From: Nibricoccus aquaticus
GTDB taxonomy: Bacteria; Verrucomicrobiota; Verrucomicrobiia; Opitutales; Opitutaceae
Assembly: GCF_002310495.1 (NCBI RefSeq)
Contig: NZ_CP023344.1
Location: forward strand, 2,294,001 to 2,358,000
DNA length: 64,000 nucleotides
Reading direction: 5' to 3'
Shown here one piece after another: positions 27,873 through 42,553 of the stretch (within the stretch, counting starts at the first letter, position 1; every line of letters starts with the position of its first letter). A program made the position numbers and the translations under genes. The notes below the pieces were generated by a model. The model was not told the origin of the DNA. It saw nothing but the letters and a program-made list of their open reading frames with translations, and ran no database searches.

Positions 27873-30800
27873 TTATGCCGAGGATTTGGTGAGCCAGCGG
27901 TCGATGGTGGCGGCGAGTTCGGCGAACTTCACGGGCTTTGAAAGGTAGTCATCCATGCCGACGGAGAGGCAGTGTTCGCGTTCGCCGGCGACGACGTTGG
28001 CGGTGAGGGCGATGACGGGGATGCGGGTGCCGGGCTCTTCACGGCGGCGAAGTTCGGTGGTGGCGGCGTAGCCATCGAGCTCGGGCATGTGGCAATCCAT
28101 GAGGACGAGGTTGTAGGTGCCGGCGGCGAGGGCATCGAGGGCTTTGCGGCCGTCGGCGACGACGTCGGCGTGGTGGCCGAGTTTTTCGACCATGCGGCGG
28201 GCGAGGGTCTGGTTCACGACATTATCCTCTGCGATGAGGATGCGGGCGGATTTGCGCGGGGTGGTGGGCGGAGTGGATTGCGTGGCGGGCGCGGGTTGGG
28301 GCGCGGCGGGGGTGGGCGCGGGGATTTCGGACCAAGCGCGCTGGATGCCGCGCAGGAGAGACGCTTTGCGTATCGGTTTTTGGGAGACGGAGACGAAGTT
28401 GTTGTTCTCGATGAGCGTGCGGTGGTCGCGCATGAGGGCTGAACTCAGGAGCATGAGCGGCAGGGCGGAGAGCGAGGCGTCGGCGCGGACGGCGGAGGCG
28501 AGTTCGAGGCCGTCCATGCCGGGCATGTGGAAATCGAGGATGGCGAGGTCGAAGGGTTTGTTTTCGCGGGCGGCGAGGCGGAGGCGTTCGAGGGCGGAAG
28601 TGCCGTCGCGGGCTTCCTCGGCGGTGATCTGCCACTGGCGGAGGATGCGGGTGAGGATGAGGCGGTTGGTCTCGTGGTCGTCCACGATGAGGACGCGGCG
28701 GCCGGGGAAGGCGGGCGGAGTCTCGGGGATGGGCGGGGTGGTGCGGGCGCCGTGCGCGAGGGTGAGGGTGAACCAGAAGGTGGAGCCGCGGCCGGGCGTA
28801 CTTTCAACGCCGATACGACCGCCCATGAGTTCGACGAGCTGGCGGGAGATGGCGAGGCCGAGGCCGGTGCCGCCGAAGCGGCGGGTGACGGAGCCGTCCA
28901 CTTGAGTGAAGGATTGGAAGAGGCGGCCGGCGGCTTCGGGGGTCATGCCGATGCCGGTGTCGCGGACTTCGACGCGGAGGACGAGGCGGCCGTCGGTGGA
29001 GGGCTCGCGGGACATTTTGACGAAGACCTCTCCATGCTCGGTGAACTTGATGGCGTTGCCGGTGAGGTTGAGGAGGATCTGGCGGAAGCGGCCGGGGTCG
29101 CCGACGGCTTCGAGGGGGACGTCGTCGTCGATCCAGCAGGCGAGTTCGATGTGTTTGCGGGTGGCGGCTTCGGCGAGGAGTTCGACGACGTCTTCGACGG
29201 AGTCACGGAGTTTGAAGTCGGAGCGCTCGAGTTCGAGTTTGCCGGCTTCGATTTTTGAGAAGTCGAGGATGTCGTTGATGATGCCGAGGAGGGCTTCGGC
29301 GGATTTGCGGACGGTGTCGGCGAACTGGCGTTGTTCGTCGTCGAGTTTGGTGTCGAGGAGGAGGCCGGTCATGCCGATGACGCCGTTCATGGGCGTGCGG
29401 ATCTCGTGCGACATGTTGGCGAGGAAGAGGCTCTTGGCCTGAGTGGCGGCCTCGGCTTGTTCCTTGGCGCGGGCGAATTCGCGGGTGCGTTCGACGATGC
29501 GGGATTCGAGGAGGTCGCGGTCGCGGCGGAGGGTTTTGGTGCGCCAGTGGAAGAAGGCGTAGATGCCTGCTCCGAGGGAGATGCCGCTGAGAACGTAGAA
29601 CCACCACGTCTCATAATACGCGGGAGTTTGAACGAGGTTGAGGGTGGCGCCTTCGTGGTTCCAGACGCCGTCGTCGTTGGCGGCGATGACGCGGAAGCGG
29701 TAGGTGCCGGGTTTGAGGTTGGTGTAGAAGGCGGTGCGGCGGTTGGCGGCGTCGATCCATTGGGGGTCGTGGCCTTCGAGCTGGTAGCGGAAGATGACGC
29801 GGGCGGAGCGGATGTAGCTGAGGGCGGTGTACTCGATGGCGAGGTCGCGGGTGCCGGCGGGGATGGTGATGGTGGAGGCGCCGGCGGGGGCGGGTTGGTT
29901 GTCGATGAGGACGCGTTCGATGAGGACGGGTGGGGCGACGCGGTTGACGGGGACTTGTGAGGGATCGGCGGCGACGAGGCCGCGGTAGGTGGCGAACCAG
30001 ATGCGGCCGTCGGGGCCTTTGAGGGAGGCGGGTTGGGAGCCGAAGCCGACGGTGGAGGGGATGACGCCGTCGGTTTCGCTGGCGATGGCGAAGGAGTCGC
30101 CACGGCGTTCGCCGCGGGCGATGGCGAGGAGCTCGGATTTGGGAGCCCAGACGATGCCTTTGGGGGTGCCGAGCCAGATGCGGCCATGTTCGTCTTCCTG
30201 GATGACGGAGACGAGGTCGTTGAAGGGGGCGGAGAGGTCTTCGGATTCGTACCAGCGGCCGTCGGGGGTGAGGAGGAGGAGGCCGTGGCCTTTGGAGCCG
30301 ACCCAGAGGCGGCCGTCGGAGTCGCAGTGGAGGGAGCGGACTTCGTCAACGGGGTCGCCTTTTTCGGTGTTCCAGTGGGTGAGGGAGCCGTCGGGGGCTT
30401 GTTTGATGAGGCCGCCGGCGCGGAGGCCGAAGTATTTGGAGCCGTCGCGGTCTTCGGCCATGGCCCAGACAACGTTCGTCGGGACGATGCCGAGGACTTC
30501 GTTCATCGGGGTGTACTGGCCGTCTTTGTAGCGGACGATGCCGTCTTGTTCGGTGCCGAACCAGAGGGCGCCGGAGCGATCCTGGTACATGCACCTCATG
30601 CCGCGGAGGTTGGTTTTTTCCTCTTCGGTGCCGTCGGGGTGGCGGATGAGGAGGGAGCCGCGGCGGCCGATCCAGAGGCGGCCATCGTCGGTGTGGAGGA
30701 GGGCCCAGATTTCGGCGAGGGGGCCGGTGCCGCCGCCAACGGTGGTGATGGCGCCGGTGGGAGAGAGGTGGACAACGCCGACGGCGGGGATGGCGGCCCA

Positions 30801-31967
30801 GATGTTGCCCAGTTTGTCGGTGGCTACGCTGCGGACGCCGTCGCCGGGGAGGCCGTCGCGGGTGCTGTACATGCGGAAGCTGGTGGGGCGGATGCGGGAG
30901 ATGCCGTAGCCGGCGGTGCCGATCCAGATGCTGCCTTCGTGGTCCTGCATGATGGCGCGGCAGTGATCGACGGAGGGGAGCTGGAGGGCGGAGAAGTGGT
31001 CGCCGTCGGGGGTTTCCATGACGTAGGCGCGGCGGGCGAGGGCCCAGATGCGGCCGGAGCGGTCGATGTGGATGTTGGTTACGGGTTCGACGCCGAGGCC
31101 TTCGGGGGTGCTGTAGCGGCGGACGTCGTTTCCGCGGACGCGGAAGAGGCCGGCGGTCTCGGAGGCGAACCAGAGGGTGCCTTCGGGGCCTTCGACGATA
31201 CGGACGACGGATTGGAGGTCGGGGCCGCCGGCGGTGAAGCGGTGGAAGGAGCCGTCGGGGTCGCGGTAGACGGGGTTGCCGGTGCGGGGGCTGATCCAGA
31301 CGCGGCCGGTGGAGTCGGCGAAGACGGTGCGAAGCTGGACGTTGGCGGGGATCTGGCCGGCGGTGTCGACGTCGATGAGTTTGTCGTCGCGGAGCTCTTT
31401 CAGGCTCTGGCCGAGGGTGGCGAGCCAGAGGCGGCCGGAGGGGTCGCGGGTGATGCCGGTGATGGCGGTGGGGAGGGGGGCGACGAGTTCGAGGCGGTTG
31501 TCTTTCCAGCGGGAGAGGCCGCGGTGGGTGCCGATCCAGAGGGTGCCGTCGGGCTCGGCGAGGAGGGAGCGGATGAGGTTATGGGGGAGGCCGGGGGTGT
31601 TGCGGACGCGGAAGTTGACGAAGCGGGTGCCGTCGAAGCGGGCGAGGCCGGATTCGGTGCCGGCCCAGAGGTAGCCGTCGCTCGTCTGGACGAGGGTGGC
31701 GGCGACGTTGTGAGGCATGCCAGCTTCGACGCCGTAGGTGTGGGCGGCGTAGGAGAGCTCGGGGCGGGCGGGGGGCGCAGGCGGGGTAGCAGAAGTGGAA
31801 ATCGAGGCGGGAGTGTCGGCGGCGTGGAGTGCAGCCGGGGTGAGAAGGTGGGAAAAAGCGGCGGTACCGAGGGCGAAGACGGCGTAAATGGCGAAGCGGC
31901 CCGTGGAGAGACGGGAAAGTTTACGCGCTCCCGCGTGCGTAGAGCCGGTTGCTGGTGGGGCAGCCAT
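27873..31967 (-). CDS. Giant hybrid sensor kinase: periplasmic beta-propeller, HisKA, two receivers
   Basis: A 1364-residue protein. It begins with an N-terminal membrane/signal segment (about 24-50). Residues ~75-700 hold many Reg_prop-type propeller blades ([45 protein letters not shown]). A Y_Y_Y domain follows (~705-770), then a membrane helix (~785-805) and a coiled coil. HisKA is [15 protein letters not shown] with H854. The HATPase domain has [15 protein letters not shown] and GGTGLGL. Receiver 1 is [11 protein letters not shown] with [11 protein letters not shown], and receiver 2 is [11 protein letters not shown] with [11 protein letters not shown]. There is no HPt or AraC output domain, so the signal must leave through a separate HPt or regulator. 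It probably senses a polysaccharide-derived ligand by analogy with Bacteroidetes propeller kinases. Confidence 0.9.
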
Positions 31968-32152: not shown

Positions 32153-33517
32153 TTAGCGTGGGAGTTGTACGGTCACGCGGAGGCCGGGGCGGTCGGGGCG
32201 GTTTTCGGCGTGGATGGTACCTCCGTGGAGGCCGACGATGCTGCGGCAGATGGCGAGGCCGAGGCCCTGGCCGGAATGGTTCTGGCCGGTGCGGGTGTGG
32301 TCGTAGCGGACGAAGCGTTCGAAGATGTGTTCTAGTTTGTCGGGGGGAAGGCCGGGGCCTTCGTCGGTGAGGGCGAGAGTCCAGTGTTGGTCGTCGAGGC
32401 GCGAGGTGAGGGAGAGGGTGGAGGCGGGCGGGGAGACGTTGAGGGCGTTGCTGACGAGGTTGAGGAGGAGTTGGCGGAGGAGGTTGGGCTCGATGGTGAC
32501 GGGGGCGGCGGGGTTGGCGGCGAGGGTGAAGTGGAGGCCGCGGTCTTCGGCGAGTGCGAGGGCGTCTTCGGCGAAGGCATTAAGGAAAGCGGCAGTGTCT
32601 TCAGTGCGACGTGGGAGGGTGAGGGTGCCGCTCTCGGCTTTGGCGATGAAGAGGAGGCTTTCGATGATCTGGTTGAGGCGGGAGATGTCGGTGAGGAGGT
32701 CTTCGAGGGCGTGGTGGGCGGCGGGGTCGGCGGCGACGGCGGGGCGGAGTTTTTCGGCGTTGAGGCGGATGAGGGTGAGGGGGGTTTTGAGTTCGTGGGA
32801 GGCGTCGGCGGTGAAGCGTTTGACCTGGATGAAGGAGGCTTCGAGGCGGTCGAACATCTGGTTGAGGAGGGTGGCGAGGGAGTTGATCTCGTCGCGCGCA
32901 GTGGAAACGGGGATACGTTCGTCGAGGCGGTCGGCGCGGATGCGGAGGGCGGTGTCGCGGATGAGGCGGAGGGGTTTGAGGGCGAAGCGGGTGAAGGCGT
33001 GGCCGAGGCCGAAGCTGGCGAGGGCGGTGGCGGCGAGGAGCCAGGCGGAGACGCGGGTGTAGTCGTGGATGAGGCGGCGGGTGGGGGCGAGGGGGCTGGC
33101 GACCTGGATGCGGAGGGAGCCGGCCTGGAACTCGGAGATGCGGAGGGGGCCGAGGGTGGGGAGCTGGTCGGTCCAGGAGGGGGGGATTTCGTCGGGCGGG
33201 ATGGGGAGGGCGGCGTCGCCGAGGTTGGGGGAGCGGAAGAGGATGGCACCGTCGGGGGTGTGGACCTGGAAGTAGTACATGGCGGCGTCGATCTCGGCGT
33301 GTTCGCGGATGCGGAGGGAGACTTCGGCGGCGTCGGGCGGGGCGGGGATGTCTTCGAGGCGTTCGCGGAGTTCGGCGAATTCGGCGGCGTTGAGGAAGTC
33401 GAGGCCGTTGACCATCTGGCGGGAGAGGAGCCAGCCGCCGACGGTGAGGACGAGGGCGGTGGTGATGGTGACGAGGGTGGCGAAGCCGAGGGTGAGGCGG
33501 CGGGAGAGGGAGGACAT
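32153..33517 (-). CDS. OmpR-partner sensor histidine kinase (HAMP)
   Basis: A 454-residue two-helix sensor kinase: TM1 at about residues 11-30, a ~130-residue periplasmic domain, TM2 (AWLLAATALASFGLGHAF), then HAMP. HisKA is DASHELKTPLTLIRL with H241, and HATPase has NLVSNALNVS, LTDEGPGLPP and GQGLGLAI. The organisation is like CusS/QseC. The start MSSLSRRLT (33517) is used. The alternative ATG 12 nt upstream would translate the end of a dispersed repeat. It is the last gene of the respiratory-like run and partner of the regulator 120 bp upstream. Confidence 0.88.
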   Translation of the reverse strand: MSSLSRRLTLGFATLVTITTALVLTVGGWLLSRQMVNGLDFLNAAEFAELRERLEDIPAPPDAAEVSLRIREHAEIDAAMYYFQVHTPDGAILFRSPNLGDAALPIPPDEIPPSWTDQLPTLGPLRISEFQAGSLRIQVASPLAPTRRLIHDYTRVSAWLLAATALASFGLGHAFTRFALKPLRLIRDTALRIRADRLDERIPVSTARDEINSLATLLNQMFDRLEASFIQVKRFTADASHELKTPLTLIRLNAEKLRPAVAADPAAHHALEDLLTDISRLNQIIESLLFIAKAESGTLTLPRRTEDTAAFLNAFAEDALALAEDRGLHFTLAANPAAPVTIEPNLLRQLLLNLVSNALNVSPPASTLSLTSRLDDQHWTLALTDEGPGLPPDKLEHIFERFVRYDHTRTGQNHSGQGLGLAICRSIVGLHGGTIHAENRPDRPGLRVTVQLPR

Positions 33518-33520
33518 TTT

Positions 33521-33553
33521 TTTAACCACTGAGTGGCACTGAAGGGCACTTAT
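33521..33553. repeat. 9-bp-period repeat (ccactgagt type)
   Basis: A T-run, then taaccactgagt / ggcactgaa / gggcactta. It occupies the spacer between the response regulator and the kinase gene of the same operon and directly abuts the kinase start codon. Confidence 0.7.
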
Positions 33554-33637
33554 GCGGAGGATGCGGGAAGTGGCGGGGCCAGGAGCGGGTTATTGGCTGA
33601 AGGCGGAGCGGGAAGAAAAGGCCGAGAGGGGCGAGGG

Positions 33638-34303
33638 TCAGGCGAGTTGGTAGCCGGTGCCGCGGATGGTTTTGAGGAGGGGGCGGTCCGGAGAGGGTTC
33701 GAGTTTTTTGCGGAGGCGGCGGACGTAAACGTCGATGAGGTTGGTTTCCATGTCGTAGGAGGCGTCCCAGATTTTTTCGGCGATGAGGGTGCGGGTGAGG
33801 ACGCGGCCGGGGTTTTGAAGGAAGAGTTCGAGGAGGGCGAATTCGCGGCTGGTGAGTTCGACGGGCTGGCCGTCGAGGGTGGCGGCGCGGGAGAGGAGAT
33901 CGAGGCGGATGGCGCCGTGGGTGAGGACGGTGGTCTTGGCGCCGGCGTGGCGGCGGAGGAGGGAGCGGATGCGGGCGATGAGTTCGTCGATGACGAAGGG
34001 TTTGGGGAGGTAGTCGTCGGCGCCGAGATCGAGGCCGTGGATACGGTCGGAGACGGCGTCGCGGGCGCTGAGGATGAGGACGGGTTCGTTGAAGCCGGAG
34101 GCGCGCCATTCGCGGAGGAGGGCGAGGCCGTCGCCGTCGGGGAGGCCGAGGTCGAGGATGACGGCGTCGAAGGGGGTGTCGGCGAGGGCGTCGCGGGCGG
34201 CGGCGCAGGTGGGGGCGACGCGGGTGGTGTGGCTGAGCTCGGCGAGGGCGCGTTCGACGAATTGGGCGACGCGGCGTTCGTCTTCGACGATGAGGATTTT
34301 CAT
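33638..34303 (-). CDS. OmpR-family response regulator
   Basis: A 221-residue regulator. The receiver domain has ILIVEDE (acidic pair), phospho-acceptor D51 in VILDLGLPDGDG and K in YLPKPF. The winged-helix DNA-binding domain follows (VELTSREFALLELFLQNPGR; TNLIDVYVRRLRKKLEP; IRGTGYQLA). The start overlaps the stop of the MFS-cytochrome fusion gene (ATGA). Tight coupling to redox genes suggests it controls this operon, perhaps in response to metal or redox stress at the membrane. Confidence 0.93.
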   Translation of the reverse strand: MKILIVEDERRVAQFVERALAELSHTTRVAPTCAAARDALADTPFDAVILDLGLPDGDGLALLREWRASGFNEPVLILSARDAVSDRIHGLDLGADDYLPKPFVIDELIARIRSLLRRHAGAKTTVLTHGAIRLDLLSRAATLDGQPVELTSREFALLELFLQNPGRVLTRTLIAEKIWDASYDMETNLIDVYVRRLRKKLEPSPDRPLLKTIRGTGYQLA

Positions 34304-36270
34304 GGAGCGGCGGGTGGAGCGTGCAGGGACTTCACGTACGCGGCGAGGGAAAGGATGTCGGGGTCGGGGAGAGTTTCGTGGCCGGCCATGGGAGAGCCGG
34401 GGAGACCGAATTTGATGAGGCGGGCGAGGGTGGCGTCGTCGGGTGTGGCGGGGAAGCGGCGCCAGGTGGGGGCGGTGAAGTCGGGCGGGCGGATGCTGAG
34501 TTGTGAGGAGAGGGGGCCGTCGGCGCGGCCGGTGGGGCCGTGGCAGGCGGCGCAGAGTTGTTGGAAAAGTTTTTGGGTGTGCGTGGGGCTGGCGGAGGGA
34601 GGCGGAGATGCGGACGGCTGCCAGCGGGCGATGGTTTCGAGGCGGTCGGGGAGGGTGTCGGCGCCGAGGTAGGCGAGGTAGGCGAGGAGGGCTTCGCCGC
34701 GGGGGTCGCCGTCGGCGAAGAGGTGGGCGTAGGAGGGCATGCGGGAGCCGGGGGAGACGGTGCGCGGGGCGAGGAGGTGGAGGCGGTTCCAATCGGGGGA
34801 GCGGCGGTTGGCGACGTTGGCGAGGTCGGGGCCCTGGCGGCGGTTGCCGAGGAGCGGCGGAGAGTCGGCGAGAACTTCGGAGAGCGGGTGGGCGGGGCCC
34901 CAGAGGAGGACGTCGGGGGTGCCGGGGCGGATGTACTGGGAATGGCAGTGGATGCAGCCCTCGGCGATGTAGACACGGCGGCCGGCGGCGACGAGGGGAT
35001 CGGCGGTGTCGGCATGGGCGGGTGGTGCCCAGAAAATCGATACGGTAGCGAAGGCGAGGAGGAGGACGGTGAAGTTGGAGGCGGCGGGTGGCGAGGTGCG
35101 GGGCGTGCGTACGGAGGAAGCGGAGGAGTTTGTTGTTGAGAAGAGCGGGCGGGCGAGGGCGGTGAGCGCGATGAGGAGGGCGAGGAGGAGTGTCCAGGCG
35201 GGGACGTGGGGGGAGGTTTGGTGTTGGGCGAGGCCGATGGCGGCGCCGGAGCCGATCCAGCCAGCGATGGCCATGAAGGCGGCGGCGAACCAGGGGCGGG
35301 CGGCGCGGGCGGGGATGACGACGAGGGCGGTGGAGTAGATCGAGACGCCGGCGACATAGAGGGTGCGGGCGAGGGCGAAGGGCGGGGCAGGGGAATTGAG
35401 GAGGGCGCAGGCGGTGACGAGCAGGGCGAGCGCGGCGAGGACGACGGGCGCGGGGCGGAAGCGGCGGAGGGCGAAACCGGCGAGGACGGCGGCGGCGAGG
35501 TGGACGAGGGCGTTGGTCTGGAGGGTGAAGGAGGAGGACCAGGTGGCGGTTTTGAAGGCGGGGTTGTGCTGGATGAGGTAGAAGGCGAGGGAGTCGAGAA
35601 AGACCAGGGCGAAGAAGGCGGTGATCCAGCGGGTGGCGTCGGAATGGCGGAGGGTGGCGGTGGTTGATGAGAGGGACTCGGTGGAGAAGGAGGGAGTGGA
35701 TGAGCGTAGCCAGATTGTGGCGACTAGGCCGGTGAGGGCGGCGAAGGAGGAGGTGAGGATTTGAGTGGCGGGTGGTGCGGTGAAGAGGGCGGGTTGGTTG
35801 CAGAGTGCGTAGGCGAGGCCGGTGCCGAGGCCGCAGGCGGGGGCGAGGGCGCGGGTGCCTAGAAGTGGGAGCAGCGAGAGGGCGAGGGTGACGGTGGCCC
35901 AGCCGAGGAAGAGGCCGATGAGCGCGGCGGAGGCGATGAGCGTGGCGGGTGAACGGGAGGCGAGGGTGAGCAGGGCGACGAGCGCGGAGGCGAGGAAGCC
36001 GAGAGCGAGGTGGGGGCGGATGCGGGCGAGGGAGAAACGCGCGGCGGCGAAGAGGCTGCCGACGATGCCGCCGAGACCGAGGGCGGTCATGAGCGGTTTC
36101 ATTTGTTCGGCGTTGAGCGAGGCGGCGGCGAATTCGAGGAAGGCGAATTCGGCGAAGATGAGGAAGTAGGTGTAGGTCGCGGCGATGGCGGCGACGCTGG
36201 CGAGGAAGACGGGCCAGCGGGCGGCGGGCGCGGGGCTCGCGGAGGAGGAATCAGGCGCGAGGGTTTTCAT
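34300..36270 (-). CDS. Fusion of MFS-type transporter and CcoO-like di-heme cytochrome c
   Basis: A 656-residue protein. Residues ~20-400 are about 12 membrane helices of MFS character (ALGLGGIVGSLFAAARFSLA; GLGTGLAYALCNQPALF). A further hydrophobic segment ends ...FWAPPAHA, signal-like, placing the C-terminus outside. The first heme site C439-IH-C-H443 lies in EGCIHCHSQYIRP, typical of CcoO/FixO, with Met in SRMPSYAHLF as likely axial ligand. The second, C573-AA-C-H577, lies in CAACHGPTGRADGP, followed by MAGHETL. The fusion of a transporter to oxidase-type cytochromes is unusual. It overlaps the small membrane protein upstream (20 nt) and the regulator downstream (4 nt). It may pass electrons to the oxidase-like subunit upstream. 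Confidence 0.82.
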   Translation of the reverse strand: MKTLAPDSSSASPAPAARWPVFLASVAAIAATYTYFLIFAEFAFLEFAAASLNAEQMKPLMTALGLGGIVGSLFAAARFSLARIRPHLALGFLASALVALLTLASRSPATLIASAALIGLFLGWATVTLALSLLPLLGTRALAPACGLGTGLAYALCNQPALFTAPPATQILTSSFAALTGLVATIWLRSSTPSFSTESLSSTTATLRHSDATRWITAFFALVFLDSLAFYLIQHNPAFKTATWSSSFTLQTNALVHLAAAVLAGFALRRFRPAPVVLAALALLVTACALLNSPAPPFALARTLYVAGVSIYSTALVVIPARAARPWFAAAFMAIAGWIGSGAAIGLAQHQTSPHVPAWTLLLALLIALTALARPLFSTTNSSASSVRTPRTSPPAASNFTVLLLAFATVSIFWAPPAHADTADPLVAAGRRVYIAEGCIHCHSQYIRPGTPDVLLWGPAHPLSEVLADSPPLLGNRRQGPDLANVANRRSPDWNRLHLLAPRTVSPGSRMPSYAHLFADGDPRGEALLAYLAYLGADTLPDRLETIARWQPSASPPPSASPTHTQKLFQQLCAACHGPTGRADGPLSSQLSIRPPDFTAPTWRRFPATPDDATLARLIKFGLPGSPMAGHETLPDPDILSLAAYVKSLHAPPAAP

Positions 36271-36655
36271 CGGACCAGAGGCGGGGCTGGCGGAGGAGCC
36301 AGAGTTGGGCGGCGACGAGGGCGAAGTCGGTGGCGGGGACGCTGAGCCAGACGGGCGGGAGCCAGCCGAGGGCGATGGCGGTGGCGGAGTAGGCGCCGGC
36401 GGCGAGGCGGAACGGGATCGTCAATTCGAAGACGGCGCGGAGGTAGGCGCGGTGGTTGCGGAGGAAGGCCCAGAGGTAGGTGGCGCCGACGGCACCGACG
36501 AAAGCGCCGACGAAGCGGAGGAAGACGAGGGCGTCTGGCGCGGGCGTGGCGACGCGCATGAGCGGGAGAAGTTGCGCGGGGAAAAAGACGAGGCCGAGGC
36601 CGGTCAGGAAATCCATGAGGCCGGCGGCGAGGGTGAAAAGGCGGAGAAGGGGCAT
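36251..36655 (-). CDS. Small four-helix membrane protein
   Basis: A 134-residue hydrophobic protein, not recognised. Helices lie at about residues 5-30, 42-65, 80-100 and 104-125. Several Arg residues flank the helices and no Cys or heme motif is seen. The gene overlaps the start of the fusion gene by 20 nt and follows the oxidase-like gene by 46 bp. This suggests it is an accessory subunit or assembly factor of that module. Confidence 0.72.
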   Translation of the reverse strand: MPLLRLFTLAAGLMDFLTGLGLVFFPAQLLPLMRVATPAPDALVFLRFVGAFVGAVGATYLWAFLRNHRAYLRAVFELTIPFRLAAGAYSATAIALGWLPPVWLSVPATDFALVAAQLWLLRQPRLWSDENPRA

Positions 36656-36701
36656 GGAGGAAATCCGAAGGTCGAAGGCCGAATGACGAAGGGCGGAAGG
36701 G

Positions 36702-38105
36702 TTAGCGGGAGGCGGTGAGGAGCCAGCGGAGGGAGACCGTGGTCATGGCGAGGCCGGCGAGGAGGCGGGCGGCGAGGAGGAACTGGGTCCAGGTTTCGGA
36801 GCGGAAAAGTTCGGAGGCGTGGGTGTTTTCCTGCCAGCCGAGGATCATCATCGTGGTGACGTAGAGGGCGCAGGCGGATTGCCAGAGGACGAAGCCGGTG
36901 CGGAGCGGGCGGGTGGCGCGGAGTTCGTTGAGGATGACGACGTGGACGCTTGTCACGAGGCCGGCCATGGCGAGGTGGGCGTGTGCTACGAGGCCGTGGG
37001 TGAATTTGAGGCGTTCGGAGAGGCCGGGGAGGAAGGTGAGGAGACCGGTGACGACGAGGAGTGACCACCAGACGAAGGCCGCTGCGAGCCAAGGGCGGGA
37101 GGCGGGAGTCCAAGCGAAACGGCGGAAGTAGAGCCAGGCAATCGGGAGCCAGCCGAGGAGGAGGGAGAGGCCGATGATTTGTCCGGCGGCGTGGTGGCTG
37201 GCGTGGCCGTGGTCGAGCGTGGCGAAAGCGGCGCAGGAGAAGGCGAAGAAGGCCCAGAAGGCGCGGTGGGGGCCGGAGCGTGTATCGGTTGGGCGGATGC
37301 CGAGGAAGGCGGGGAGGAGGCCGAAGATTGCGACAATGCCGAGAGTGGAGCCAAGGAGGCTGGCGCCGGTGGCGCCGCCGCTGTGGGGATTGACGGACGG
37401 GTAGACGTCGTCGCCGGCGGACCAGTAGAGCGCGGAGGGAACGGCGAGGAGGATGAGGAGGAAGGCGGCGCGGGCGAGGAGGCCGGGGCGGGAGAAGTTT
37501 TGGCGGAACCACCAGAGGCGGGCGGCGAGGACGGTCCAGAGCGCGGTCATGGCGAGCGGGAGGAGCGGGCGGGCCCAGCCGTGCCAGTCGAGGAAGAGTT
37601 TGCCGCTGGTTTCGCCGGAGAGCCAGGACGCGCCGCCGAGGGCGAGCGCGAGCGACCAGAGCCAGAGCGCGCCTTGGACGGCCCGCTGGGGGAGTTGAAG
37701 GTTGATTGTTGAGAGTTGAGAGTGGTCGGAGGGGGTGAGCCAGGCGGTGAGGGCGCCGATTAGCGGGAGGGAGCACCAGCCGTAGAGTTGCCAGTCGAGG
37801 TGGAGGGGCATCCAGCGGCCGTACGTGAGCGGGGCGAGGGCGTCGCCGAGATCGGGATACAGGAGTTCGGCGGCGAGGAGGAGGCCGACGAGGTTGGCGG
37901 CGACGAGCCAGAAGAGGCTGTGGAGCTGGAGGGCGCGGGCGGTGGGGGCGGGGAGAACGGAGGATGTCTCGCGAAGAAGCGAAGGGGAGTCGGACGGACA
38001 ATGCGGAGCATTGTCCCTACCTTCGGAGGGAGGGGCGGGATTTTTGGCTAATGGAGTGCCAGGCGCGCCTGGTGGGAGGCGCGTGAGTTGAGAGGAGGTT
38101 TTCAC
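36702..38105 (-). CDS. Divergent heme-copper oxidase subunit I-like membrane protein (CcoN/NorB-like)
   Basis: A 467-residue protein with about 12 membrane helices. TYGRWMPLHLDWQLYGW carries H102, aligned with the low-spin heme His of CcoN (GR-x-x-PLH). LDHGHASHH contains H299, H301, H304 and H305, possibly the metal-binding HH pair. THGLVAHAHLAMAG contains H370, H375 and H377, like the terminal heme ligands. The usual W-x-x-GH ligand of helix 6 is not seen. PSVNPHSGGATG may replace it. The start is GTG at 38105, overlapping the ABC ATPase stop (GTGA). The first ~55 residues translate a REP hairpin and other repeats, and an insert at 37692-37722 encodes LSTINLQL. Whether it reduces O2, NO or another acceptor is unknown. 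Confidence 0.62.
   Translation of the reverse strand: MKTSSQLTRLPPGAPGTPLAKNPAPPSEGRDNAPHCPSDSPSLLRETSSVLPAPTARALQLHSLFWLVAANLVGLLLAAELLYPDLGDALAPLTYGRWMPLHLDWQLYGWCSLPLIGALTAWLTPSDHSQLSTINLQLPQRAVQGALWLWSLALALGGASWLSGETSGKLFLDWHGWARPLLPLAMTALWTVLAARLWWFRQNFSRPGLLARAAFLLILLAVPSALYWSAGDDVYPSVNPHSGGATGASLLGSTLGIVAIFGLLPAFLGIRPTDTRSGPHRAFWAFFAFSCAAFATLDHGHASHHAAGQIIGLSLLLGWLPIAWLYFRRFAWTPASRPWLAAAFVWWSLLVVTGLLTFLPGLSERLKFTHGLVAHAHLAMAGLVTSVHVVILNELRATRPLRTGFVLWQSACALYVTTMMILGWQENTHASELFRSETWTQFLLAARLLAGLAMTTVSLRWLLTASR
37692..37722. repeat. Heptanucleotide repeat inside the oxidase-like gene
   Basis: Units gagttgaag / gttgatt / gttgaga / gttgaga encode QLSTINLQL between two predicted helices. 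It is the third gene of this window interrupted in frame by the same repeat type. Confidence 0.7.
37968..38028. repeat. REP hairpin and 22-bp duplicated segment in the oxidase-like gene 5' end
   Basis: 37998-38018 is a perfect hairpin GGACAATGC-gga-GCATTGTCC followed by CTACCTTCGG (to 38028). 37968-37988 (gtctcgcgaagaagcgaagg) is repeated almost exactly at 42379-42400, upstream of the PAP2 gene. Both elements lie in the first 50 codons of the oxidase-like gene. Confidence 0.7.
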
Positions 38106-38776
38106 AGGGGGCTGAGCTGGCCGTCGCGGACGCGGAAGATGCGGTGGCAGGCTTCGGCGAAGCGGCGTTCGTGGGTGGCGAGGATGACGGCGATCTTGTC
38201 GCGTTCGGCGAGAGTGCGGAGGAGCGCGAAGACGGTTTCTCCGGTCTTTTCGTCGAGCGAGCCGGTGGGTTCGTCGGCGAGGAGAACTTTGGGCGAATTC
38301 ATGAGGGCGCGGCAGATGGCGGTGCGCTGGCGTTCGCCGCCGGAGAGGTCCTGGATGCGGTGGGCGAGGCGGTGGGAGAGGCCGACGGATTCGGCGAGGG
38401 AGCGGAGGCGGGCTTCTGTATCGGAAGTGTCGCGACCGATGGCGAGGGCGGGGACGCGGAGGTTTTCGGCGACGGTGAGGTCGGGGATGAGGTTGTGGAG
38501 CTGGAAGACGTAGCCGAGGTGCTGGCGGCGGAGGATGAGGCGGTCGCGTTCGTTGCGAGGGTCGAGTCCGCAGACCTGGAGTTCGCCGCGGTCGGGGGTG
38601 TCGAGTCCGCCGAGGAGGTGGAGGAGCGTGGATTTGCCGGAGCCGGAAGCGCCCCAGAGGGCGACGATTTCGCCGGGGCGGACGGAGAGGCTGGCGCCCT
38701 GGAGGACGGTGACGCGGCCCTGGTCGAAGGATTTCCAGACGTCCTTGGCGGAGGCGATGGCGTTGGCGTTATTCAT
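38102..38776 (-). CDS. ABC transporter ATP-binding protein (LolD/MacB type)
   Basis: A 224-residue ATPase with Walker A GASGSGKST, LGYVFQLHNLIPDLTVAEN (LolD-type Q-loop), signature LSGGERQRTAICRAL, Walker B VLLADEPTGSLD and H-loop ATHERR. The type acts with FtsX/MacB-like permeases in lipoprotein or small-molecule extrusion. It starts at 38776 inside the permease stop (ATGAATAA overlap) and its stop overlaps the oxidase-like start (GTGA), so all three genes are coupled. Confidence 0.92.
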   Translation of the reverse strand: MNNANAIASAKDVWKSFDQGRVTVLQGASLSVRPGEIVALWGASGSGKSTLLHLLGGLDTPDRGELQVCGLDPRNERDRLILRRQHLGYVFQLHNLIPDLTVAENLRVPALAIGRDTSDTEARLRSLAESVGLSHRLAHRIQDLSGGERQRTAICRALMNSPKVLLADEPTGSLDEKTGETVFALLRTLAERDKIAVILATHERRFAEACHRIFRVRDGQLSPL

Positions 38777-39881
38777 AGCGCAGGGCGTCGGCGGGCTGGA
38801 TGCGGGCGGCATAGCGGGCGGGATAGATCGCGCCGGCGACGGCGGTGAAGAGGGCGGTGGCGACAATGCCCAGGACGATGGAAGGTTTTATCGAGGCCTG
38901 GATGTAGCCTTGGAAATCGGGGAGGTGTTCGAGGATGGTGAGGACGCCGAGGCCGAGGGAAAAACCGAGGACGAGGCCGGCGGCGGCGATGGCGGCGGCT
39001 TCGCCGAAGATGAGGGCGCAGACCTGGCCGGTGGAGAAGCCGCAGACGCGGAGGATGGCGATCTCGCGGATGCGGGAGAAGACGGAGAGGAGCATCGTAT
39101 TGGCGACGCCGAGACCGCCGAGGAGGAAGGCGCAGACGCCGACGGCCCAGGCGGTGAAGTGGAGGATTTTGAACTGGGTGTAGCTTTGGTTGAACTCGCG
39201 GTTTTCGAGGGCGGTGAGGCCGGGGTGGAGTTTTTCGACGGCGGTTTTGAAGGCGGAGGCGGCGTCGCGGTCGCGGAGTTTGACGGCGATGATGGAGCAG
39301 AGGTCTTCGCGGTGGAAGAAGGCCTGGGCGGATTTGAGGGGGAGGAAGACGCCGCCGTCTTCGAATCCGTTTTCGGTTTTGAAGATGCCGCCGACGACGA
39401 AGGTGCCGCGGCCGATGTCGATTTTTTCGCCGAGTTTCGCGTCGAGGAATTCGGCGGCGCGGGAGCCGAGGTAGATGTCGTTGTCGTTTTTCCCAAAGGT
39501 GGCGGCGGAGCCGGCGAGCCAGGTGGCTTTGGCGAGGCGGGGGTCGGTGGGGTCGAGGCCGAAGCAGGTGATGATCGGGTGGTCGTCGGCCGAGACGATG
39601 CCGAAGAGGAGGGGCATTGCTGACTCGACTTCTGGGAGTGCCCGGATTCCGGATACCTGGTCGGTGGTGACGGAGCTGAAGAAGAGGTCGGAGACGTTTT
39701 TCTCGAAGACGAGGCAGTGGGAGTCGGTGGCGAGGATGCGTTCGAACATGCCGATGGCGCCGGTGACGATGGCGAGGATCGTGAGCATGGCGGCGACGCC
39801 GAAGCCGATGCCGGCGACGCCGATGAGCGCGCGGAGGCGGTGACGGAGGAGGTTGGTGGGGACGAGGCGGAGGAAGCGCAT
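38769..39881 (-). CDS. ABC transporter permease (FtsX/LolCE/MacB type)
   Basis: A 370-residue permease. TM1 is near the N-terminus (LIGVAGIGFGVAAMLTILAIV). A ~200-residue periplasmic MacB-PCD-like domain follows (DLFFSSVTTDQVSGIRALPEV; IYLGSRAAEFLDAKLGEKI). Three C-terminal helices (about 245-275, 295-320, 330-355) carry SRIREIAILRVCGFSTGQ, the coupling segment of FtsX permeases. It ends with YPARYAARIQPADALRYE, a family hallmark. It is paired with the LolD-like ATPase. A single permease gene suggests a homodimer. Confidence 0.9.
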   Translation of the reverse strand: MRFLRLVPTNLLRHRLRALIGVAGIGFGVAAMLTILAIVTGAIGMFERILATDSHCLVFEKNVSDLFFSSVTTDQVSGIRALPEVESAMPLLFGIVSADDHPIITCFGLDPTDPRLAKATWLAGSAATFGKNDNDIYLGSRAAEFLDAKLGEKIDIGRGTFVVGGIFKTENGFEDGGVFLPLKSAQAFFHREDLCSIIAVKLRDRDAASAFKTAVEKLHPGLTALENREFNQSYTQFKILHFTAWAVGVCAFLLGGLGVANTMLLSVFSRIREIAILRVCGFSTGQVCALIFGEAAAIAAAGLVLGFSLGLGVLTILEHLPDFQGYIQASIKPSIVLGIVATALFTAVAGAIYPARYAARIQPADALRYE

Positions 39882-39896: not shown

Positions 39897-40811
39897 TCAG
39901 GCGGCGGCTTCGCGGGCTAGGATGGGGGCGAGGAAGGCGTTTTGAAAATCGGCGAGGTAGCGCCAGCGGGGGTGGAAGGCGGAGAGTTTTTCCAGGGTGG
40001 CGGAGGCCTGGCGGGCGAGGCGGTGGAGGCGGCGGCGGGCGGCGGGGATGCCGAGGGCGAGGGCGAGATTGGGGCGGGCGAGGGCGCGGTCGCGGCCGGT
40101 GGTTTTTCCCGAGGTGGCGGGGTTGGAGAGGAGGTCGTGGATGTCGTCGGATGCCTGATACGCGAGGCCCCAGTAGAGGCAGAGGGCTTTGAGGTGGTGG
40201 AGCTCGGCGGAGGAAGGATCGGCGAGGAGCGCGGGGAGGTAGATGGCAAGGGTGAGGAGGGTGCCGGTTTTGCCGGCGGCGATGGCGGCGACTTCGCGGG
40301 CGGAGCGGTCGCTGGTGGCGAAGCGAAGGTCGCGGGCCTGGCCGCCGAGGATGCCGGCGGTGCCGAGGGCGGCGTCGAGCGTGGCGTGGGCGCGGAGGCG
40401 GAGGCCGGAGGGGAGGTGGGAGAGGGAGAAGGCGGCGAGGGTGTAGGCGCGGTTGATGAGGGCGAGGGCGGCGAGGATGGCGGTGGCGTCGCCGTGGATG
40501 CGGTGGGTGCAGACCCGGCCGCGGCGTGTATCCGCATTGTCCATGCAGGGGAGGTCGTCGAGGAGGAGGGAGGCGAGGTGGTAGTACTCGACGGCGCAGG
40601 CGAGGGTGAGGGCGTCGGTTTCGTCGAGGCCGTGGGTGAGGGCGGCGCGGAAGACGAGGCGGGCGCGGAGGAGGCGGCCGGGGTTGGCGGTGGCGTCGGT
40701 GAGGGCGGCGCGGAGGTGGGGCTCGACGGCGGAGTGGCCGGGGGAGTTTTCCCGCAGGGCTTCGAGAAGAAGGGACGCGTCGGGGTCGGCGGGTGCGGGA
40801 TGGTGGGGCAT
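39897..40811 (-). CDS. Polyprenyl (geranylgeranyl/farnesyl-type) diphosphate synthase
   Basis: A 304-residue IspA/CrtE-like enzyme that condenses isopentenyl diphosphate with allylic diphosphates. The first Asp-rich motif is LLLDDLPCMDNADTRRG and the second is YQASDDIHDLL, both complete. A GKTTGRDRA segment follows. Four residues before the first motif are small/bulky (EYYHLASLLLDD). Two aromatic residues there suggest a limit on chain length to C15-C20, but this is a guess. It ends 15 bp before the ABC permease on the same strand and is preceded by a YceI-family gene, whose relatives bind polyisoprenoids. Confidence 0.92.
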   Translation of the reverse strand: MPHHPAPADPDASLLLEALRENSPGHSAVEPHLRAALTDATANPGRLLRARLVFRAALTHGLDETDALTLACAVEYYHLASLLLDDLPCMDNADTRRGRVCTHRIHGDATAILAALALINRAYTLAAFSLSHLPSGLRLRAHATLDAALGTAGILGGQARDLRFATSDRSAREVAAIAAGKTGTLLTLAIYLPALLADPSSAELHHLKALCLYWGLAYQASDDIHDLLSNPATSGKTTGRDRALARPNLALALGIPAARRRLHRLARQASATLEKLSAFHPRWRYLADFQNAFLAPILAREAAA

Positions 40812-40878: not shown

Positions 40879-41463
40879 TTATTTGGCGGGGGCGGGGCGG
40901 GCCTGGAGGTGGAGTTTCACGACGACGACGGGGTCGACTTTGAGGAGGCCGAATTTGCGGATGATGGGAAGGCCGAAGTCGCGGGTGTCGATGCGGGCTT
41001 CGCCGTCGATAACGTGGAGGCCGTCTTCGCTCGAGGAAATGGATACGGGGAAGACGAGGTCGCGGGTCATGCCGTGGAAGATGAACTGGCCGCGGGCGGT
41101 GAAGCGGCCGGGGGTGGCGGCGGGTTCGAGGGTGGTGAGGGTGAAGAGAGCTTCGGGGAATTGCTCGGTGCTCTGCCAGTCGCGCATCTGCTGGTCGCGT
41201 TTGGCGTTGTCGGAGCGGAGGTCGGCGAAGCGGAAGCGGAGTTCGGCGCGGGTGATTTTGGCGGGGGTGGCGGGGTCGGAGGAGAGGTCTAGGGTGTAGG
41301 AGATGAGTTTGCCGGTGAAGGAATCCATCGTGGCGGTGACGGCGTACTCGATGCGGGATTGGGGTTTGTCGGCGATGAGTGGGGTCTCGGCGGCGGGGGC
41401 GCGCGAGGCGAATGATGTGAGAAGGAGTGCGGCGAGGAGGGCGGGGAGTAGCGGAGATTTCAT
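40879..41463 (-). CDS. YceI-family periplasmic protein
   Basis: A 194-residue protein. The signal peptide MKSPLLPALLAALLLTSFA ends at RAPAAE. The YceI lipocalin-like beta barrel is indicated by SRIEYAVTATMDSFTGKLI, ADLRSDNAKRDQQMRDWQST (YceI has R-D-x-H/Q-L/M-x-x-x-F), FPEALFTLTTLEP, RGQFIFHGMTRDLVFPV and IDTRDFGLPIIRKFG. Known members bind polyisoprenoid chains and often sit near cytochrome b561 or respiratory genes. It is immediately upstream of the prenyl synthase gene, 67 bp away. Confidence 0.9.
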   Translation of the reverse strand: MKSPLLPALLAALLLTSFASRAPAAETPLIADKPQSRIEYAVTATMDSFTGKLISYTLDLSSDPATPAKITRAELRFRFADLRSDNAKRDQQMRDWQSTEQFPEALFTLTTLEPAATPGRFTARGQFIFHGMTRDLVFPVSISSSEDGLHVIDGEARIDTRDFGLPIIRKFGLLKVDPVVVVKLHLQARPAPAK

Positions 41464-41626: not shown

Positions 41627-42355
41627 TCAGGCGGTCGAGGGGTGGGAGGCTTTGAGTGGGAGGCGGGTCGCGAGGTGGTGCCAGAGGAGGAAGATGAGCC
41701 AGGAGGCGAGGGCGGTGATGACGGTGTGGCTGAGGTAGTGGGCGCCTTTGAGCATTTGATAGACACCCATGATGCCGCCGAGTGCGAGGCCGATGGATAT
41801 GCCGGTAAGCTGGCCGCGGCGGGTGCGGGCGAGGGCGGCGAGGCTGAGGAGGGCGAAGCCGCCGGAGGCGTGGCCGGCGGGGAAGCAGCGGCCGCGGCGG
41901 GCGGGGCGCTGGCCAGGCGGGTAGCATTCGAAGACGCGGATGTAGGCGACATCGCCGCCGTATCTGGAAATCTCGGAGGGGCAGAAGATGTTGGTCACGG
42001 CTTTGCCGATACCGATGAGAGCGGGGCCGGAGGCGAGGGTGAGAAGGACGGCGAGCAGGGCGCGGCGGTCGGTGGGGGAGGGAAAGTGGAAGAAGGTGCG
42101 CCAGCGGGCGGGACCGAGGAGGAGGGCGAGGAGTGAGACCGCGAAGAGGATCAGGAAAATTTTAGGTGCTTGATAAAAGAAGAGGCGGGGGAGCGGGGCG
42201 GTGCCGTCGATGAGCCACTGGCGGGTGGTGAAGTTGTAGAGGTGGTCCTGGAGGAGGAGGTCGATGGAGGTGAGCTCAAAGAGCGCGAGCGCGCCGGCGA
42301 GCAGGGCGAGTGCGGGCCAGAGGGTGCGGGCAAGATTGAGCGGGGCGGAGTTCAC
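41627..42355 (-). CDS. PAP2-family membrane phosphatase
   Basis: A 242-residue protein with about six helices. Phosphatase motifs are K in GKAVTNIFCPSE (region of KX6RP), CFPAGHASGGF (the PSGH motif with Ala for Ser) and GAHYLSHTVITAL (SRX5HX3D region with catalytic His). Such enzymes dephosphorylate lipid phosphates such as undecaprenyl or phosphatidylglycerol phosphate. The missing Ser and Arg make activity less certain. The start is GTG at 42355, inferred because upstream in-frame codons translate a dispersed repeat. An ATG at 42469 is the alternative. Confidence 0.78.
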   Translation of the reverse strand: MNSAPLNLARTLWPALALLAGALALFELTSIDLLLQDHLYNFTTRQWLIDGTAPLPRLFFYQAPKIFLILFAVSLLALLLGPARWRTFFHFPSPTDRRALLAVLLTLASGPALIGIGKAVTNIFCPSEISRYGGDVAYIRVFECYPPGQRPARRGRCFPAGHASGGFALLSLAALARTRRGQLTGISIGLALGGIMGVYQMLKGAHYLSHTVITALASWLIFLLWHHLATRLPLKASHPSTA

Positions 42356-42378
42356 GGAGTGCGGAGAGAATCGGAGAG

Positions 42379-42480
42379 TGTCTCGCGAAGAAGCGAAGGG
42401 AGCGAAGGTGGGCGGTTGCGGGTAAGTTCCTGGCGTCTGGCTTGGCCACAAAAGGCGCACGGGGCGCAAAAAGGGAAAGC
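42379..42480. repeat. Dispersed repeats upstream of the PAP2 gene
   Basis: 42379-42400 is the second copy of the 22-bp segment also found at 37967-37988. 42445-42480 is a degenerate ccacaaaagg / cgcacgggg / cgcaaaaagg block. A hairpin GCCGAC-ggggac-GTCGGC followed by gctcccaggg lies slightly beyond, at 42525-42552. Confidence 0.6.
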
Positions 42481-42553
42481 GACGGAGAGATGAGGCAGGT
42501 GTTGTTAGAGTGAGGTTTTCGGATGCCGACGGGGACGTCGGCGCTCCCAGGGA

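Follow-up and report, generated by a model that had tools for sequence, protein, structure and literature searches.

A possible envelope redox system for isoprenoid lipids, centred on a CcoN-like protein, in Nibricoccus aquaticus

A stretch of 64,000 nucleotides (nt) from Nibricoccus aquaticus (NZ_CP023344.1, positions 2,294,001 to 2,358,000; the window, whose own numbering is used for all coordinates) carries on its minus strand an operon of nine genes, among them a gene for an oxidase-like, CcoN-like membrane protein here named OX. We propose, with a probability of about 0.42, that this operon encodes a redox module of the cell envelope that acts on isoprenoid lipids and whose core is a CcoN in which the oxygen-reducing site is no longer retained; OX itself is probably not an oxygen-reducing oxidase. 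Two genes of the operon, encoding a YceI protein and a prenyl synthase, point to lipid rather than oxygen chemistry. An earlier note on this DNA had described seven of the nine genes and had read them as a possible respiratory unit, self-contained and perhaps under stress regulation, with electrons plausibly passing from a CcoO-like cytochrome to the oxidase-like protein.

Results

OX has a CcoN-like fold and retains the heme ligands

The fold of OX was assessed on an AlphaFold2 (AF2) model (predicted local distance difference test score, pLDDT, 89.6; predicted template modelling score, pTM, 0.87). The best Foldseek rows for this model were chains of cbb3 oxidases (E 4.7e-8); in structure comparison with VIA it matched the cbb3 subunit CcoN with a Z score of 28.6 (387 residues, 3.9 Å) and the cytochrome c-dependent nitric oxide (NO) reductase, cNOR, with 28.1 (390 residues, 4.0 Å). 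Judged by its model, OX therefore has a heme-copper fold nearest to that of CcoN, with the fold score tied with cNOR. A profile of the OX family matched only three distinct sequences in the PDB at E 1 or better, all of them cbb3 subunit I (E 7.5e-9, 5.2e-5 and 0.0099). Local hhalign runs gave 80.1% with CcoN (E 1.4e-5) and 96.7% with a second group of CcoN-like proteins (E 3.3e-10), the controls (an A-type oxidase, MFS, RND and reversed CcoN) giving 0.1-1.0%; these controlled runs are preferred to another setting, run without controls, that gave 95.7% and 98.7%. Kinship of OX to the A-type oxidases was rejected at 0.1%. In a tree of 59 sequences, a branch with full support and a length of about 5.6 changes per column, of which 2.6 and 3.03 lie on the two sides of the midpoint root, separated the 41 OX proteins from 13 CcoN and five second-group sequences. 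The divergent heme-copper-like subunit of the earlier note is thus confirmed in its fold by model, Foldseek and VIA alike.

The PF00115 search that had been suggested as a check of OX gave the opposite outcome. OX has no Pfam match even at E 1, PF00115 included; its only NCBIfam match is PRK14485 (17.8 bits, E 7.4e-4), so that neither of the family profiles PF00115 and TIGR00780 recognises it. The same PF00115 search of the whole genome found three other loci only: an A-type oxidase, a CcoNO fusion in a cbb3 operon and a second CcoN-like gene.

Histidine is invariant at only three positions of the 41 aligned OX sequences, H102 in transmembrane helix (TM) 2 (41/41) and H375 and H377 in TM10 (40/40 rows with letters). 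These align with the low-spin and high-spin heme ligands of CcoN (PLHTN and GHVH in the latter), and OX is accordingly predicted to bind two b hemes. Three histidines at CuB, in a caa3 oxidase, and a His-Tyr cross-link in the cbb3 enzymes are described in PMC8780969. The OX positions nearest to the CuB ligands, 241/304/305, hold Asp-His-His in 28 of the 41 sequences, His-His-His in four (the window copy included), Glu-Asn-Arg in three, Gly-His-His and Asp-Asn-His in two each, and His-Asn-His and Gly-His-Ser in one each. The alignment of this region is uncertain between two registers: the PDB profile alignment places the CcoN histidine pair on D298/H299, where H299 is His in 34/41, and the TM6 histidine of CcoN beside a glycine pair rather than on 241. 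A conserved ligand set is found in neither register. Neither at the start of TM6 nor in the TM7-8 loop do all 41 sequences share a histidine and, at the place of the active-site tyrosine of TM7, no column of window-copy positions 278-300 has Tyr in more than 10/41. Since the heme histidines are invariant and the CuB histidines and tyrosine are not conserved, the OX family, as aligned, keeps the heme part of the enzyme and not a conserved copper part. A respiratory oxidase as the main explanation was rejected on these ligand and profile tests.

It is nevertheless conceivable that OX is a divergent heme-copper oxidase or NO reductase, taking electrons from CcoO and using a modified metal site to reduce O2 or NO. 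The tied fold scores and the CcoO partner would suit such an enzyme, and H241, H304 and H305 of the window copy, or the Asp-His-His of the majority, could hold copper or iron. NorB, the cytochrome c-dependent NO reductase, has three His and a Glu as FeB ligands; OX resembles it in fold, but the OX profile has no match to NorB in the PDB and the metal-site histidines are not kept across the family. With Glu-Asn-Arg or Gly-His-Ser in four members, no conserved tyrosine, no PF00115 match and lipid genes as frequent neighbours, we regard an oxidase or NO reductase as quite improbable.

The first 40 or so residues of OX are of low model confidence and mostly lack counterparts in homologues. Inside this extension sits a palindrome, GGACAATGC-NNN-GCATTGTCC, which occurs in the genome 11 times without mismatch and 19 times if up to two mismatches are allowed, some of the copies in close pairs; the backwards pattern does not occur. 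It is apparently an element like the repetitive extragenic palindromes (REP-like) that was taken into coding sequence. As to the second CcoN-like subunit, in five loci (L056, L057, L058, L060 and L124) it lies in an operon with CcoO and a monoheme cytochrome, which presumably resembles alternative complex III. The N. aquaticus copy of this subunit is itself matched by PF00115; in the copy of L056, as aligned, the HxH heme ligands are missing.

The operon and its conservation

The seven consecutive minus-strand genes (32153-39881) were borne out, with the identities given them, by profile scans. They form a real unit, which extends upstream by two genes that are syntenic in most relatives and had been left out of it, those for YceI and the prenyl synthase (Table 1). 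The gaps in transcription order from YceI to the kinase are 67, 15, -8, -4, 46, -20, -4 and 108 nt. Four of the six junctions in the seven-gene set are thus overlaps (MacB-LolD, LolD-OX, DUF4345/MFS-CcoO and MFS-CcoO/regulator); the five overlapping or coupled junctions claimed earlier are reached only if the 46-nt gap between OX and DUF4345 counts as coupling, regulator and kinase being 108 nt apart. The CcoG, CcoH, CcoI and CcoS families, said to be missing, are indeed not among the matches listed for eight operon proteins (for kinase, regulator and ABC ATPase, the best 25 NCBIfam rows). CcoP, also said to be missing, is present only as a domain of MFS-CcoO (PF13442), with TIGR00782 at 15 bits against a cutoff of 179.95. 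The ABC pair does not reach the LolCDE equivalog cutoffs (TIGR02211, Table 1; TIGR02212, 92.8 against 362.45 bits).

Table 1. Features of the OX operon in the window, genes in order of transcription.
Feature	Position	Strand	Basis
YceI-family periplasmic lipocalin	40879-41463	-	PF04264 65.7 bits, cutoff 23.7; isoprenoid/quinone binding by family
Polyprenyl diphosphate synthase, putatively short-chain (farnesyl/geranylgeranyl, FPP/GGPP-type), apparently dedicated	39897-40811	-	PF00348 129.2 bits
MacB/LolC-type ABC permease	38769-39881	-	PF12704 and PF02687
LolD-type ABC ATPase	38102-38776	-	PF00005; TIGR02211 220 bits, under cutoff 307.75
OX, CcoN-derived 12-TM membrane protein, two b hemes predicted	36702-38105	-	AF2 model, structure comparison, PDB profile search
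DUF4345-like small membrane protein	36251-36655	-	PF14248 23.1 bits, just below cutoff 26.5
MFS transporter fused to diheme CcoO/CcoP-like cytochrome c	34300-36270	-	MFS fold, FixO domain
OmpR-family response regulator	33638-34303	-	PF00072, PF00486
Sensor histidine kinase	32153-33529	-	HAMP, HisKA, HATPase_c
Palindromic repeat in N-terminal extension of OX gene	37996-38016	.	Genome-wide copies

The order YceI, prenyl synthase, MacB/LolC-like, LolD, OX, DUF4345, MFS-CcoO recurs, whole or in part, at 43 loci in Verrucomicrobiota and Acidobacteriota. These came from a scan of a named genome collection with two short peptide patterns, which misses divergent members; most are from Opitutaceae, others from further Verrucomicrobiota such as Methylacidimicrobium tartarophylax and Verrucomicrobiae bacterium DG1235, and three from Acidobacteriota. 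That the order recurs across two phyla makes the arrangement more than chance; the genes do stay together in relatives, and a lack of synteny, which would have spoken against the unit, was not found. OX is present in 10 of 194 genomes of the phylum (E 5.1e-76 or better) and in 14 of 61 sampled genomes of the family (E 2.5e-135 or better); the next matches in the family have E 1.4e-10 or worse, two of them in N. aquaticus itself being the cbb3 CcoN and the second CcoN-like gene.

Partners were counted by tblastn, on the same strand and within 6.5 kb of OX, because gene calling masked some genes by antisense open reading frames (e.g. L075, L076 and L080-L082). Upstream of OX in the 43 loci were YceI in 36, prenyl synthase in 34, and MacB and LolD in 38 each; downstream were DUF4345 in 33, MFS and CcoO in 34 each, the regulator in 19 and the kinase in 20 (in one, L101, upstream). 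Among the 32 loci with enough upstream contig the counts are YceI 29, prenyl synthase 26, MacB 29 and LolD 29, and among the 30 with enough downstream contig DUF4345 23, MFS 26, CcoO 27, regulator 15 and kinase 15. The set varies in several ways. One locus of Methylacidiphilaceae (L103) has the order shuffled with most of the set still together; two (L051 and L053) consist of YceI, prenyl synthase, OX, CcoO, regulator and kinase; and in L084 and L088 the MFS-CcoO gene is about 9 kb away. In L097, L099, L102 and L104 a metallo-beta-lactamase-fold gene and an MMPL/RND gene follow; a metallo-beta-lactamase-fold gene also stands after OX or MFS-CcoO in L103 and L109 (PF12706 in each of the four genes scanned). 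In another genome (L141, G152) a MacB-LolD pair lies near the site where the congener L054 has the whole operon; the OX and CcoO genes are gone, an apparent loss of the redox part alone.

The two-component genes raise a further explanation, namely that OX and the cytochrome c form a heme-based envelope sensor. It would signal redox state, O2 or NO to the neighbouring kinase, and the kinase would control envelope lipid genes. An open high-spin heme could bind gases, and kinase and regulator do follow in 15 of the 30 loci with enough downstream contig. The pair is absent from the other half, however, and the cytochrome c domains keep their heme motifs and axial Met, as in electron carriers; a sensor is therefore very unlikely.

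An MFS transporter joined to a diheme cytochrome c

In the AF2 model of the fusion protein (pLDDT 83), residues 16-377 have an MFS fold, with a VIA Z of up to 30.8 (357 residues, 3.5 Å); one more helix follows, then a CcoO domain and then a second cytochrome c domain. PF07690 has no match to this protein, and one standalone relative falls below its cutoff (30.7 against 33.4 bits). The CcoO domain carries the EGCIHCHSQYIRP motif and matches FixO (PF02433) at 94.2 bits with a cutoff of 29.6, and TIGR00781 at 92.1 bits, below the cutoff of 200.65. The second domain matches PF00034 and PF13442, "cbb3 subunit III" (41.9 bits, cutoff 27). Model and profiles thus uphold the fusion as first described: a genuine MFS fold, as modelled, joined to a diheme cytochrome c whose likeness to CcoO extends to the motif. 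Both CxxCH motifs are kept in all 32 fused relatives (C439, C442 and H443 32/32), as are Met511 (32/32) and Met628 (31/31 rows with letters). In L087, L094 and L096 two neighbouring genes encode MFS and CcoO separately, and CcoO genes with a single CxxCH occur in L052, L054 and L096, that of L054 with a further one-heme gene next to it.

The fusion could be taken to mean that the MFS part is a copper importer like CcoA and that the whole set helps another oxidase to mature. The cbb3 oxidases depend on CcoA, a copper importer of the MFS type, and CcoA in turn requires MxxxM and HxxxM motifs (PMC5829832). Besides this precedent, the nearest NCBIfam model of the kinase, among the matches listed, is the copper/heavy-metal type cztS/silS/copS, at 221.4 bits and so below its cutoff of 292.55. 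Against it, neither MxxxM (TM7) nor HxxxM (TM8) occurs in the TM7-TM8 stretch of any of the 32 fusions, where His257 is invariant and the residue four positions on is Ala in 31 and Gly in one; a CcoA-like importer was rejected on this ground. The cbb3 operon, moreover, lies about 2.2 Mb away and has its own CcoG, so that a role in copper supply or cbb3 assembly is extremely improbable.

The MFS family may, by analogy, be a lipid flippase. The hint comes from genes for an LtaS-like sulfatase and a PAP2 phosphatase beside the operon and in relatives. They flank the operon at 41627-44620, and among standalone relatives of the MFS half four of the six loci examined (L063-L066) adjoin the same pair of genes. 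LtaA offers an analogous flippase, for which our literature search gave no useful support.

Prenyl synthase, YceI and lipid-type transporters

The aspartate motifs DDLPCMD and DDIHD of the operon prenyl synthase are intact, and both are present in 28/28 relatives. Close relatives (E 2.0e-59 or better) occur in 13 of the 61 family genomes, all 13 among the 14 with OX; each of the 61 genomes also has other prenyl synthase matches, at a much lower level (E 4.1e-34 or worse). Because the close relatives are confined to genomes with OX, the sequences argue that this synthase is not the housekeeping copy and is dedicated to the OX operon. Supply of FPP for the prenylation of heme (heme O/A) was considered as a further possible role. 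The YceI protein has a signal peptide by eye. The other YceI genes of the genome follow genes for small proteins of 95-111 residues which, by eye, are not b561, and the b561 family is not among the Pfam matches of the nine operon proteins. In published work, YceI proteins held octaprenyl compounds or ubiquinone-8; they are widely linked with membrane cytochrome b561, and Burkholderia mutants of such a pair show more lipid peroxidation (PMC9113575).

In the Acidobacteria-type variant of the operon, the RND genes have their best matches to HpnN (316.7 bits in L099 and 310.4 in L104, cutoff 751.85) and to the sterol transporter BstA (240.8 and 237.2 bits respectively, cutoff 1400). Two of the four RND genes were scanned, and all these matches are below the curated cutoffs. 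On this likeness, each of the two kinds of transporter found with the module belongs to a type that moves lipids.

These same genes could also serve to make a special isoprenoid lipid of the envelope and to export it. In that case a prenyl lipid derived from the prenyl diphosphate of the operon would be oxidised, desaturated or hydroxylated by the cytochromes, which would pass the electrons to the respiratory chain; the ABC or RND transporter would export the product to the outer membrane, and YceI would be its carrier. The dedicated synthase, YceI and the HpnN/BstA-like transporter of the variant fit this, as do genes for UbiA and a UbiE-like methyltransferase downstream in L102. UbiA and the methyltransferase were noticed in that locus only, however; several loci retain the cytochromes but yielded no prenyl synthase, and the Pfam matches of the nine operon proteins include no prenyltransferase, cyclase or squalene/phytoene synthase. 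We consider biosynthesis unlikely.

Discussion

In the proposed isoprenoid-lipid redox module, the prenyl synthase would feed an isoprenoid, quinone-like or another prenyl lipid, which the MFS/LolCD pair, or the HpnN-like RND protein in the Acidobacteria-type variant, would move out of the inner membrane and YceI would carry through the periplasm. The b and c cytochromes would swap single electrons between the cytochrome c pool and the lipid or its oxidation products. From fold and ligands we infer for each step a path that would run from the cytochrome c pool through the c hemes of CcoO, the low-spin heme b and the open high-spin heme b to a hydrophobic substrate from the membrane. Both substrate and direction of electron flow are guesses. 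The likeliest direction is reduction of oxidised lipid, a role put forward for cytochrome b561 acting together with BcnA, a YceI protein; by analogy with this YceI precedent we lean towards a defensive role, reducing oxidised lipid or quinone, over a biosynthetic one in which new lipid is oxidised.

Several observations weigh against this module. A three-histidine metal site (H241, H304 and H305) may exist in the window copy of OX, and the Asp-His-His of most members could bind metal. The prenyl synthase was not found near OX in seven loci (L069, L079, L080, L084, L088, L100 and L054), nor was YceI in L069, and the YceI gene of L108 is on the opposite strand. The DUF4345 gene offers no clue to function. 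No quinone- or lipid-modifying enzyme is a constant neighbour, the unlabelled neighbours having been partly scanned. The ABC pair may also serve something other than the module, since it occurs without OX in one genome (that of L141) and is absent between prenyl synthase and OX in six loci (L097, L099, L102 and L104, as well as L051 and L053).

The nearest functional precedent is BcnA-LcoA, a YceI protein and cytochrome b561 that defend against lipid peroxidation. Like it, the present operon combines YceI and a membrane protein for which b hemes are predicted; here, however, the b protein derives from CcoN and not from b561, and a cytochrome c, a prenyl synthase, an ABC pair and an MFS transporter are added. 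With CcoN/CcoO of cbb3 oxidases it shares the 12-TM fold, the three heme-ligand histidines and a neighbouring CcoO with a CxxCHSQ motif, but CcoO is anchored to a whole MFS transporter and lipid genes are part of the operon. OX is a relative of the oxidases in which some of the features that define them are missing. The likeness to HpnN/BstA is also limited, as the variant RND proteins are shorter (681-713 residues) and the window operon has no RND gene, MacB/LolD-type genes standing there instead.

Our literature search, mainly of open-access work, found no description of this gene set; in the literature covered, the OX clade and the gene combination appear undescribed, although the parts belong to known families. 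A bolder and less likely reading is a new class of heme-copper-fold enzyme in which the O2-reducing copper site was given up in favour of redox chemistry on lipids. This would be an isoprenoid-lipid oxidoreductase of Verrucomicrobiota and Acidobacteriota, linked to cytochrome c and equipped with an isoprenoid supply of its own, a lipocalin as carrier and transporters for lipids. In most members a 2-His-1-carboxylate site (Asp-His-His) possibly replaces CuB. If this is true, the heme-copper fold has been reused for lipid chemistry, and a single operon gives a genetic handle on the protection or synthesis of isoprenoid lipids in the envelopes of some Gram-negative bacteria; the operon is found in apparent isolates, Opitutaceae EW11 and Verrucomicrobiae DG1235. 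It is also a caution that oxygen respiration does not follow from calling a gene "oxidase-like" on the strength of a CcoO neighbour or motif.

Adjoining the kinase gene of the operon, at 27873-31967, is a gene for a large hybrid two-component protein which, by eye on its sequence and from BLAST cross-hits, has propeller-type sensor repeats, a kinase and two receiver domains.

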